Below, in pieces: positions 2,929-5,611 of a stretch of DNA of 64,000 bases. Position 1 is the stretch's first letter, and every line of letters begins with the position of its first letter. Source of the stretch: Shouchella clausii (GTDB taxonomy: Bacteria; Bacillota; Bacilli; Bacillales; Bacillaceae_D). The translations under genes were made by a program, and so were the position numbers. Below the pieces are notes generated by a model. The model did no database searches, was not told where the DNA came from, and saw only the letters and a program-made list of their open reading frames with translations. The stretch is taken from NCBI RefSeq assembly GCF_002250115.1, contig NZ_CP019985.1:2542001-2606000 (forward strand), read 5' to 3'.

Positions 2929-3168
2929 ATGAAACGACACACATTGTTGATTATTGCTGGATTTTTGCTTTTTGGGGCTCTTGTTGGCGGCGGAGCAGGC
3001 GCCGGTTTACGCTACCTATTCCACTACTTTTGGGCCGATGGTCAGTTGCGAGGAGGCGATTTATGGGTAGCGGCAGCGATTGCTGCTGTACCTGGAATGG
3101 TGGCCAGCGTCTATTGGGGTTATTTTTACCGCAAAAAAGAACGGAACGAAACCAAGCATTTGCATTAA
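2929..3168 (+). CDS. Small two-helix membrane protein of unknown function
   Basis: 79 residues from an ATG with a GGAAAGGA site seven bases upstream. Two hydrophobic helices are visible (about 5-30, Gly-rich GALVGGGAGAGL, and about 46-66), followed by a positively charged tail (YRKKERNETKHLH). It is divergent from the kinase/regulator pair across a short intergenic region. I do not recognise the family. Confidence 0.7.
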   Translation: MKRHTLLIIAGFLLFGALVGGGAGAGLRYLFHYFWADGQLRGGDLWVAAAIAAVPGMVASVYWGYFYRKKERNETKHLH

Positions 3169-3231: not shown

Positions 3232-3260
3232 TTGCAGACAACACAAGGATATCGTATAGT
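3232..3260 (+). promoter_or_regulatory. SigmaA-type promoter of the riboswitch transcript
   Basis: TTGCAG (3232-3237), a 17-base spacer and TATAGT (3255-3260). Transcription would start near 3267, just ahead of the yybP-ykoY aptamer. Confidence 0.75.
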
Positions 3261-3283
3261 TAAACAAAATCTATAGGAAATTC

Positions 3284-3408
3284 CCAAAGGGGAGTAGCAT
3301 AAAAGCAGCTGTCGTCATTACAGGAGCAATCCTCGGCACTGCTGGCAGCACAGGCTTCATGCGCTGCTTGCGAGACCTTTGTCCATGCTGTGGGCAAAGG
3401 TCTTTTTT
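3284..3408 (+). ncRNA. yybP-ykoY manganese-sensing riboswitch with intrinsic terminator
   Basis: The conserved 5' block CAAAGGGGAGTAGC (from about 3285), the internal GTCGTCATTA block (3312 onward), a CTGGCA-type segment and the 3' block GAGACCTTTG (3372-3381) are the hallmark motifs of the yybP-ykoY leader (Rfam RF00080), a Mn2+ sensor. The 5' CAAAGG can pair with CCTTTG to form P1. The same AGACCTTTG also pairs with CAAAGGTCT at 3395-3403, followed by a T run, giving a terminator that excludes P1. This is the known ON-switch layout: Mn2+ binding favours P1 and read-through. The downstream genes are a 40-residue basic protein and a kinase-like protein, not the usual TerC/MntP-type exporter. 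Confidence 0.9.
3373..3408 (+). terminator. Expression-platform terminator of the riboswitch
   Basis: AGACCTTTG (3373-3381) and CAAAGGTCT (3395-3403) form a nine-base-pair stem, with an inner CCA/TGG extension, followed by six T. Its left arm is shared with P1 of the aptamer. Confidence 0.9.
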
Positions 3409-3459
3409 GTGTGCTTTTGCCTGCGGCGGCCACTAGAAAACATAAGGGAGAGATCGGTT

Positions 3460-3582
3460 ATGTCGAAAATAACAAAGCTACTAAAATCGAAAGCTGTACG
3501 GGAAGGGGTCAAACAAGCACAAAAACATCTCTTGCCGGTTGTTAAAAAAGAGTTGGCAAAGCGAATGTCAAAAAAGCGATGA
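3460..3582 (+). CDS. Small basic protein, 40 residues, unknown function
   Basis: Starts at an ATG nine bases after AAGGGAG. The product is strongly basic (a lysine/arginine-rich helix ending in KRMSKKR) with no membrane segment. It is the first gene after the Mn2+ riboswitch terminator and overlaps the kinase-like gene by four bases (ATGA), so both should be co-expressed. A longer in-frame start at 3379 lies inside the terminator and has no SD. Function unknown. Confidence 0.6.
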   Translation: MSKITKLLKSKAVREGVKQAQKHLLPVVKKELAKRMSKKR

Positions 3583-4211
3583 ATGCGGAGACGTCTACAA
3601 TCTATAGAGATGAATTGGCCCACATTGTATTTGTAAGAAAAGGTAGGAATATAGCACTAAAAAACACTCCTGCGAATTGGGAACTAATCGGCAAGGGCAG
3701 GAGTGCATACGTTTTTAAAATAATAGGGGAACAGCGGGCGATCAAAGTGTTCTATCCGCCGTTCGAGCATTTGGCGATGGAAGAGGCACGCAACTATGAG
3801 AAAGTAGCGGGTATTTCGTTTTTTCCTCGCCTTTACGAAGCAGGTGAAGGATACTTAGTGATGGATTTCATTAGTGGAAAAACGTTTTTTGACTGCTTAG
3901 CAGAAGGTGTGGCGATTACGAAGGACCATGTTGCCCAAGTCGACAAAGCCCTTGAATTGGCAAGAAGGGCCGGCTTAAATCCGTCTGACATCCACTTGCA
4001 TAATTTGCTGCTGACAGAAACAGGCACTGTCCGCTTAATTGATATTGCTCGTTTTTCTCAAAAAAAGCAATGCACACAATGGCAAGACTTAAAAAGAGGT
4101 TATGAGCGCCATTATGGACAACGTTATTTTCCGAAACGAGTGCCAAAGTGGTTGATGATGATTGTCGCCTATTTCTATCAGTTGCGAAAACGTTGGAACG
4201 GCAAACAGTAA
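3579..4211 (+). CDS. Protein kinase-fold protein (YrzF-like Ser/Thr kinase family)
   Basis: 210 residues. A glycine-rich loop (LIGKGRSAYVFKI), the ATP-binding Lys (RAIKVFYP), a hinge region (GYLVMDFISG), a catalytic loop with D-x4-N spacing (PSDIHLHNLL) and a metal-binding Asp (RLIDIARF) are all in kinase order. HRD and DFG are degenerate, as in the small Bacillus YrzF-type and lipopolysaccharide-kinase-like families. The C-terminus is basic and aromatic. It is coupled to the 40-residue gene and sits in the transcription unit read out of the Mn2+ riboswitch. Substrate unknown. Confidence 0.8.
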   Translation: MNAETSTIYRDELAHIVFVRKGRNIALKNTPANWELIGKGRSAYVFKIIGEQRAIKVFYPPFEHLAMEEARNYEKVAGISFFPRLYEAGEGYLVMDFISGKTFFDCLAEGVAITKDHVAQVDKALELARRAGLNPSDIHLHNLLLTETGTVRLIDIARFSQKKQCTQWQDLKRGYERHYGQRYFPKRVPKWLMMIVAYFYQLRKRWNGKQ

Positions 4212-4782: not shown

Positions 4783-4882
4783 TGTTCGTTTTCCACTATA
4801 CGGCTAGTTGGTGAGAAAATGCAATCCTGTTTTTAGAAGGGCAAGTTATGGTATTTTATTAGAAAGAAAGGAAGGTGCATTC

Positions 4883-5611
4883 GTGTTTACTTTTATTGGT
4901 TGTGGCAGCGCGTTTCATACAAAACTAGGCAATAACGGCATCATGGCAAAAGAGAGTGGCCAGCTTTTTTTGATTGATTGCGGCAGCTCTACGTTTCATC
5001 GTTTGCAATCGTTTCATGTATTAGACGGGGTTAAGACGATACACGTCGCCATGACCCACACTCACCCTGACCATATAGGTTCTCTTGGCGATTTGATTTT
5101 TTACTCCTATTTTAAAATGGAACCAGCATTTCAAGCAAAAGTAACAGTGCTAGCGCCTAAAGCATTGCTGCCAGCGATAAAGGCAGTGTTGAAAGGAAAT
5201 GGAGTAGACGATACCCATGTCTTTTGGCAAGAAATAAAAGATGCCTATATGTACGAAGGCTGCGGCGGGATCGAGCTTGTACCTGTACAAGTGCAGCATG
5301 CTGAAAATCTGCTTTGCTTTGGCTACGAAATCAACACGAAAGGCAACCATATTTACTATAGCGGCGATGCCAATGCAATCAGCGCCGACGTGTTGCAAAA
5401 ATTAAAAGCAGGACGTTATGACGTCTTTTACCAAGACACATGCACGGCGGATTATCCAGGAAATGTCCACTTGTCCTTACGTAAGCTGATCGAACTTGTC
5501 CCTGAAGAGAATCGGTCTGTTGTGTGCTGCATGCATGTAGATGAGGAATTCGATTTAGCCTATGCAAAAAAACAAGGATTTCAAACGGCAACCGATTATT
5601 TGATTTCGTGA
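4883..5611 (+). CDS. MBL-fold metallo-hydrolase
   Basis: 242 residues from a GTG with AAAGGAAGG seven bases upstream; the longer frame from 4808 has no SD. The zinc signature H-x-H-x-D-H appears as THTHPDHIGS, with a later YYSGDANA segment (metal-bridging Asp) and CCMHVDEE near the C-terminus. The fold and length resemble the RNase Z/arylsulfatase-like branch of MBL proteins, but no substrate can be given. It is divergent from the Rrf2 regulator, which may control it. Confidence 0.85.
   Translation: MFTFIGCGSAFHTKLGNNGIMAKESGQLFLIDCGSSTFHRLQSFHVLDGVKTIHVAMTHTHPDHIGSLGDLIFYSYFKMEPAFQAKVTVLAPKALLPAIKAVLKGNGVDDTHVFWQEIKDAYMYEGCGGIELVPVQVQHAENLLCFGYEINTKGNHIYYSGDANAISADVLQKLKAGRYDVFYQDTCTADYPGNVHLSLRKLIELVPEENRSVVCCMHVDEEFDLAYAKKQGFQTATDYLIS

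Follow-up and report, generated by a model that had tools for sequence, protein, structure and literature searches.

The window, that is, the whole stretch of 64,000 nucleotides of Shouchella clausii DNA that was analysed, carries a putative yybP-ykoY (Mn2+) riboswitch followed by two genes, one for a small basic protein and one for a YrzF-type protein with a kinase fold. These features are listed in Table 1. The stop codon of the small gene overlaps the start codon of the kinase gene in the sequence ATGA, and no separate ribosome binding site was found for the kinase gene. The kinase is 94% identical to those of Shouchella clausii, S. tritolerans and S. rhizosphaerae. An earlier note on this DNA had drawn both reading frames and their overlap in the same way, and had described a riboswitch reading into a small basic protein and a YrzF-type kinase at a locus with no TerC gene; our analysis agrees on all these points. 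In the window genome (4.5 Mb), a TerC gene lies under a second, sister yybP-ykoY riboswitch.

Table 1. Features of the riboswitch-kinase operon in the window.
Feature	Position	Strand	Basis and remarks
Probable sigma-A promoter	3232-3260	+	TTGCAG 3232-3237, N17, TATAGT 3255-3260; read from sequence
yybP-ykoY (Mn2+) aptamer	3283-3383	+	RF00080 match, R1 match, covariation in relatives
Intrinsic terminator, 15-pair stem then T-run	3372-3408	+	5' arm contains the 3' strand of P1
Ribosome binding site of the small gene	3444-3452	+	Read from sequence
Gene for 40-aa basic protein MSKITKLLKSKAVREGVKQAQKHLLPVVKKELAKRMSKKR	3460-3582	+	Homologues, codon-position differences
Gene for 210-aa YrzF-type minimal protein-kinase-fold protein	3579-4211	+	Catalytic residues, predicted fold

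Two neighbouring genes of the window were also noted. Positions 4808-5611 encode a protein of the metallo-beta-lactamase fold that matches the Pfam family Anti-Pycsar Apyc1 with 58.5 bits (cut-off 50 bits). Positions 2929-3168 encode a membrane-like protein of 79 amino acids for which Pfam gave no family above the cut-off, and which also lies upstream of the riboswitch in L078, L080, L082 and L083.

Aptamer and terminator of the leader

In a covariance-model search of 351 bases, the Rfam family RF00080 matched window positions 3277-3434 on the plus strand with 26.7 bits (E 1.1e-5), a score below the gathering cut-off of 45 bits. The search of the whole window at curated Rfam thresholds listed nothing. 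That is, the covariance-model search by which the earlier note had suggested checking its riboswitch did find the match, but not at the strength of the family cut-off. The terC-linked aptamer of the same genome also falls below this cut-off with 42 bits, and in 7 of the 13 genus genomes there is a match above it, in no case at the kinase locus. The window aptamer reaches 85 bits with model R1; this value is partly circular, since the window is one of the 31 related aptamers from which the model was built.

The window contains all elements of the expected structure: P1 (3285-3290 with 3376-3381), the junction, P3 and P4, with covariation in relatives, and the conserved loops L1 (GGAGUA, 3291-3296) and L3 (UCGUCAUUAC, 3312-3321), the latter with the Mn-binding adenosine when aligned by eye. 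RNAalifold predicted 25 pairs from the 31 aptamers, of which 11 are changed on both sides. We then considered 52 kinase-linked aptamers without the window, in an alignment (A5) that was fitted to the structure of R1 and therefore favours that structure. In these aptamers 12 of the 25 pairs were changed on both sides, compared with 7.0 in shuffled alignments (0 of 500 as high), and 97.2% of the cells were paired against 28-49% when the pairs were slid; the number of further pair types was close to that of the shuffles (28 of 500 as high). The alignment was made from 46 of the 50 riboswitch loci of the named set described below and from 6 of the family's 23, with L174, L175, L190 and L227 of the former and L093 and others of the latter omitted. 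Both GGGGAGUA and UCGUCA are present in all 52 aptamers and also in the window, while the full UCGUCAUUAC is kept in just 37 of the 52.

The manganese site of the Lactococcus lactis riboswitch is formed by G9, U39, C40, A41, U44 and C45, and its P1.1 by A3-G7 with C96-U100 and beyond (excerpts of PMC9190785). When the window was aligned with this site by eye, the order of the bases was the same, with A3317 at the place of A41 and an A replacing U44. Within the genus, L1 and UCGUCA are identical between the kinase-linked and the terC-linked aptamers, and the bases directly after UCGUCA vary in both.

The predicted terminator (15 pairs at 3372-3404, then the T-run) overlaps P1 and holds its 3' strand, as in RF00080 riboswitches with a shared strand. 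P1 and the terminator should therefore be mutually exclusive, and ON switches are laid out in this way, with a P1 strand that doubles as a terminator arm. At 50 of 51 loci (the window and 50 of the best 80 of 541 kinase loci; L197 has none), P1 is overlapped by a hairpin with T's behind it, as counted by a loose rule without a shuffle control; some of the 50 are weak. The 130-nt leader with the terminator folds 3.9 standard deviations below its shuffles (z -3.93). The aptamer fragment alone, which contains only half of the P1 3' strand, is not unusual (z -0.30). As to transcription, the promoter that the earlier note had called good has both of its boxes, but it is just fair and is absent from the consensus-scan list; in many relatives, TTGAC-like and TATAAT-like boxes are seen by eye at the same position.

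From the RF00080 match, the P1/junction/P3/P4 structure and the covariation, we conclude that the predicted yybP-ykoY aptamer at window 3283-3383 is real, and both the aptamer motifs and the P1/terminator switch which the earlier note had seen are borne out. A chance aptamer is ruled out by the covariation together with the overlapping terminators. Weak matches in the leader to a PyrR site (RF00515, 19.9 bits against a cut-off of 54) and to CRISPR repeats were taken as chance. Separately, we observed by eye that L091, L099 and L069 are among aptamers followed by two tandem terminator-like hairpins, the second again with a CCTTTRC arm.

The small protein and the kinase

Homologues of the small gene were found in 17 of 41 family genomes (E 0.001), one in each and always beside a riboswitch-linked kinase, and none was found in the remaining 24. 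Of 22 homologues that were read, 19 were compared without gaps over 35 codons, near-identical rows included (L183, L191 and L198 were dropped for their length). Over 5985 codon pairs, codon positions 1, 2 and 3 differed 1566, 826 and 3099 times, with 2240 synonymous and 1613 nonsynonymous differences, which is the pattern of a real gene. In Oceanobacillus jeddahense (L183), the small gene lies in one frame with the kinase, giving 247 amino acids; this is a single case and could be a sequencing error. These results indicate that the predicted small protein is a conserved partner of the kinase across part of the range of the kinase. Pfam gave no match for the 40-aa protein at E 1, and we therefore rejected its identity with FbpB (PF13040, Fur-regulated). 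The 41-aa protein in the equivalent slot of L167 does match PF13040, with 56.3 bits.

The kinase itself scores 23.6 bits (E 4.1e-5) with Pfam Pkinase (PF00069), whose cut-off is 31.7, and 15.4 bits with RIO1 (PF01163), whose cut-off is 22; on the latter score we rejected membership in the RIO family. The residues that characterize the protein-kinase fold are all present, that is, the Gly loop, the Lys, the Glu, the catalytic Asp with Asn and the metal Asp, and G38, G40, K56, E69, D137, N142 and D155 are invariant in 24 of 24 relatives. The AlphaFold model (pLDDT 92.6) has a short C-lobe, and its nearest folds are RIO2, the CurKC kinase domain and PknA. The top structural match was 1zar (RIO2), with E 7.5e-8, a TM score of 0.53 by query length and 17% sequence identity. 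Matches of the defence-system search PADLOC (PD-T4-6, MAD6) look like general kinase similarity, and a defence kinase was rejected.

We call the protein YrzF-type because it has full-length homology to a Bacillus subtilis-group protein, as seen from the B. spizizenii relative L210 and from the kinase tree. L210, which we take to stand at the yrzF position, aligns with residues 11-206 of the kinase with 50% identity in the best segment and 45% in the alignment.

YrzF of Bacillus subtilis has been grouped with PrkC, PrkD and YabT as a Hanks-type kinase (PMC12747378, in part) and is listed as a contact of MutL in a table of interaction partners (PMC4205851, in part); the excerpts of these two papers give no function for it. 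As a separate observation, a kinase of a second kind, a clear Hanks-type Pkinase (72.3 bits over a stretch of 110 amino acids), is encoded downstream of a Mn2+ riboswitch whose core lies near position 5244 on the reverse strand of L110 (G024).

Linkage of riboswitch and kinase among relatives

We compared the locus in genus, family, order and named sets, which overlap in genomes. In the genus, 12 of 13 genomes have the kinase, and in all 12 the riboswitch lies less than 350 nt upstream of the kinase match; the remaining genome (G003) has neither the kinase nor the riboswitch copy of the kinase locus. In the family, a kinase match was found in 28 of 41 genomes; among 32 sources, made up of the window and 31 fetched loci and counting L104, which has no kinase match to the window protein, a riboswitch was found in 24.

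At the level of the order, the kinase search had a match in 211 of 299 genomes at E 1e-10, and R1 matched 282 of the 299. Sixty order loci were fetched, and they are not random: they were taken from the top of the kinase matches listed, mostly 1-3 per family, after both lists had been seen. A riboswitch match was present at 24 of these 60, in 23 cases 82-1116 nt upstream and on the strand of the kinase, and in one (L129) divergent. At 12 of the 60, a riboswitch nearby had been noted beforehand (L119, L126, L143, L145, L161 and L167-L173, the last seven added for this reason), and without these loci 11 of 48 were linked.

The named set comprises the best 80 of 541 loci by kinase similarity alone, and so leans to close relatives. 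A riboswitch match was found at 56 of these 80, of which 50 were strong and upstream on the same strand (69.6-101 bits), two were weak and upstream (L212, 25.9 bits; L194, 22.7 bits; both outside the 50 and scored as lacking a riboswitch in the tree) and four were divergent. For the 50, the distance from the riboswitch to the script-chosen kinase start was at most 260 nt in 31, 260-1000 nt in 14 and more than 1000 nt in 5. No match was found at 24 of the best 80 of 541, counting L215, which lies at a contig edge with 371 nt of upstream sequence, and the match was absent at all 12 loci of the B. subtilis, licheniformis and pumilus groups. These 24 loci indicate that the kinase can manage without control by the riboswitch. 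The divergent riboswitches are those of L202, L221, L222 and L223 in the named set (best 80 of 541) and of L129; in L202, L221 and L129 the riboswitch is followed by genes for Spo0M and a membrane protein of the CNNM type, as assigned by Pfam for L202.

With 2-3 model matches per genome of about 4 Mb, a hand estimate puts the chance that a given kinase has one of them upstream on its own strand, at no more than 2 kb, below 0.001. A quickly built tree of 90 kinases, with a single kind of support, explains the riboswitch label by 12 changes, compared with 27.4 after shuffling; just 4 of these 12 are forced by starred branches. The window kinase falls in a clade of 19 rows (SH-aLRT 99), all of which have the riboswitch.

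The earlier note had raised a case against its own reading, namely that an exporter is the conserved downstream gene and that the kinase stands here by rearrangement. The linkage at 12 of 12 genus kinase loci and at 50 of the best 80 of 541 named loci speaks against this case and rules out a rearrangement unique to the window genome. The suggestion of the same note that the kinase is a gene class under the Mn2+-type riboswitch holds, since the arrangement recurs at those 50 named loci. Taken together, these comparisons indicate that the predicted YrzF-type kinase recurs among the genes that make up the Mn2+-riboswitch regulon in Bacillales.

The genes between riboswitch and kinase vary. We found the riboswitch followed directly by the kinase, by the 40-aa protein and the kinase, by a 38-aa protein, a DUF6376 lipoprotein and the kinase, and by an FbpB-like protein, Spo0M and the kinase; elsewhere the intervening genes are FbpB-like, Spo0M, DUF6376 lipoprotein, DUF1232 or TerC genes, or none. 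Thus, of the order riboswitch-small gene-kinase, for which the earlier note had proposed a survey, the riboswitch and the kinase are constant but the small gene is not. In eight fetched loci, terC lies between the two, directly before the kinase, in two kinase subfamilies (subfamily I, L193, L206, L214 and L218; subfamily II, L091, L092, L093 and L099). In L214 (Mesobacillus foraminis), the order is riboswitch, FbpB-like, Spo0M, DUF1232, TerC, kinase. The kinase is accordingly not set apart from exporters: the window locus has no TerC, but at these eight loci TerC shares the operon.

Among the 140 order and named loci (named, best 80 of 541), TerC is in the operon in just four, in addition to a remnant in L143. 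There, a terC-like stretch of 29 codons (L143:3259-3345, tblastn E 3e-5) lies between the riboswitch and the kinase and is probably what is left of a terC gene. Loss of terC may thus have produced some of the kinase-only operons, and the remnant suggests that in some lineages the kinase became the first gene after the riboswitch only through this loss. We regard the arrangement, as read from the sequences, as one gene pool shuffled behind one kind of riboswitch, in which the putative kinase is a frequent member among the loci seen, all of them gathered via the kinase. Because the genes in between vary, common regulation need not mean a common pathway.

Two further groups of genes were observed behind these riboswitches. 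FbpB-like (PF13040, tested on the L167 protein) and Spo0M genes follow the riboswitch in L167-L169, L199, L201, L206, L214, L239, L241 and L247, hinting at cross-talk between iron and manganese control. In the family loci L060, L062, L067, L106 and L109, Mn2+ riboswitches are followed by genes of the undecaprenyl-phosphate translocase-like (PF04018), BacA/UppP and AI-2E families, as called by Pfam on the L060 and L062 proteins and by look-alike sequence for the other three; this suggests that Mn2+ is tied to lipid-carrier recycling.

Possible role of the operon and comparison with known systems

We take the aptamer, the overlapping terminator, the linkage, the sharing of operons with TerC in some species and the intact catalytic residues as established by the sequences compared here, and we infer that Mn2+ is the ligand, that the switch is of the ON direction and that the two genes are translationally coupled. 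In vitro, the ykoY riboswitch of H. halodurans behaves as an ON switch and lets transcription read through when Mn2+ is present (PMC10898510, in part). By analogy, the window switch would turn on at high Mn2+, and the kinase would appear when Mn2+ is plentiful. That is, when Mn2+ in the cell is low, the nascent leader would form the terminator at 3372-3408 and transcription would stop. When Mn2+ is ample, the ion would dock L1 and L3, P1 would keep the strand 3376-3381, the terminator would be blocked and the genes would be made. The 40-aa protein would be translated from its own ribosome binding site, and the kinase through coupling at the overlap.

As to what the kinase does, MeeF and MeeY, which are TerC proteins of B. 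subtilis, show Mn efflux activity and help to load exported enzymes with metal (PMC10550928, in part). We think that an Mn2+ ON riboswitch controls a two-gene operon in which the kinase most likely phosphorylates a protein tied to surplus Mn2+ or to the loading of secreted proteins with metal through TerC, and the small protein would act as its adaptor or activator; we give this reading a probability of about 0.7; the substrate and the role of the small protein are guesses within it. A Mn2+-gated regulatory kinase is thus our best guess. More speculative, and rather doubtful as a whole, is a relay from metal to phosphorylation, in which the riboswitch sets the level of the kinase, and the kinase and its 40-aa adaptor phosphorylate components of Mn2+ efflux or TerC-dependent loading. 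If such a relay were true, one ion signal would act on both transcription and protein activity.

The main rival is a metabolic kinase for a small molecule, a lipid or an envelope component, which would use Mn2+ as cofactor and be made when Mn2+ is available, with no part in signalling. The short C-lobe would suit such an enzyme, as would the matches to models of Kdo kinase (22.4 bits) and heptose kinase (20.1 bits) besides those of protein kinases, although both are weak and fall well short of the cut-offs. The strongest curated-model and structural matches are nevertheless protein kinases (Pkinase, PASTA kinase, RIO2, PknA), and in the 23 listed order loci the genes between riboswitch and kinase include no sugar or lipid gene; we therefore consider a metabolic kinase unlikely, although less so than the other rivals, and signalling in Mn2+ handling the likeliest role. 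It is somewhat less likely still that the kinase acts directly on the exporter or metal chaperone TerC or on its partners, tuning export after synthesis: the eight loci with TerC directly before the kinase in two subfamilies and the sister riboswitch over TerC in the window genome agree with this, but TerC is in the operon in just the four of 140 loci (named, best 80 of 541) given above. Improbable, finally, is a variant aptamer that senses another divalent metal and puts the operon outside Mn2+ control, since, although some yybP variants are expected to sense other metals (PMC7266159, in part), the window has an A at the place of U44 and the full L3 motif is kept in only part of the kinase-linked aptamers, U44 is described as giving a phosphate contact (PMC9190785, in part), and the identical L1 and UCGUCA, like the variable bases after them, are common to kinase-linked and terC-linked aptamers of the genus.

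Returning to the Mn2+-gated kinase, reviews name chiefly cation transporters as the genes under the yybP-ykoY riboswitch, along with some of diverse kinds (PMC7266159 and PMC3766115, in part). In the limited part of the literature searched (including PMC3766115, PMC4342826, PMC7266159 and PMC11087558, each in part), no kinase under this riboswitch was seen. The pairing links a kinase that has received little study with the control of manganese, and it suggests that Mn2+ homeostasis may have a post-translational arm; as a recurrent riboswitch target in Bacillales, the kinase offers a functional lead for the YrzF type.

Compared with the transcriptional ON riboswitches of RF00080 (yoaB of Lactococcus lactis and ykoY of H. 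halodurans), the window riboswitch is the same in architecture, in L1, in UCGUCA of L3 and in the strand shared by P1 and the terminator, but differs in reading into a kinase operon and in scoring below the Rfam cut-off. The window kinase belongs to the same family as YrzF of Bacillus subtilis; unlike the window, the 12 loci of the B. subtilis, licheniformis and pumilus groups (best 80 of 541) have no riboswitch match. RIO2 kinases provide its best structural match (1zar), yet the identity is 17% and the RIO1 score is below the cut-off. With the TerC/MeeY (YkoY) operons under Mn2+ riboswitches, the operon has the same riboswitch in common, and TerC and the kinase are co-operonic in the eight fetched loci, whereas the window locus differs from them in having the kinase without TerC.
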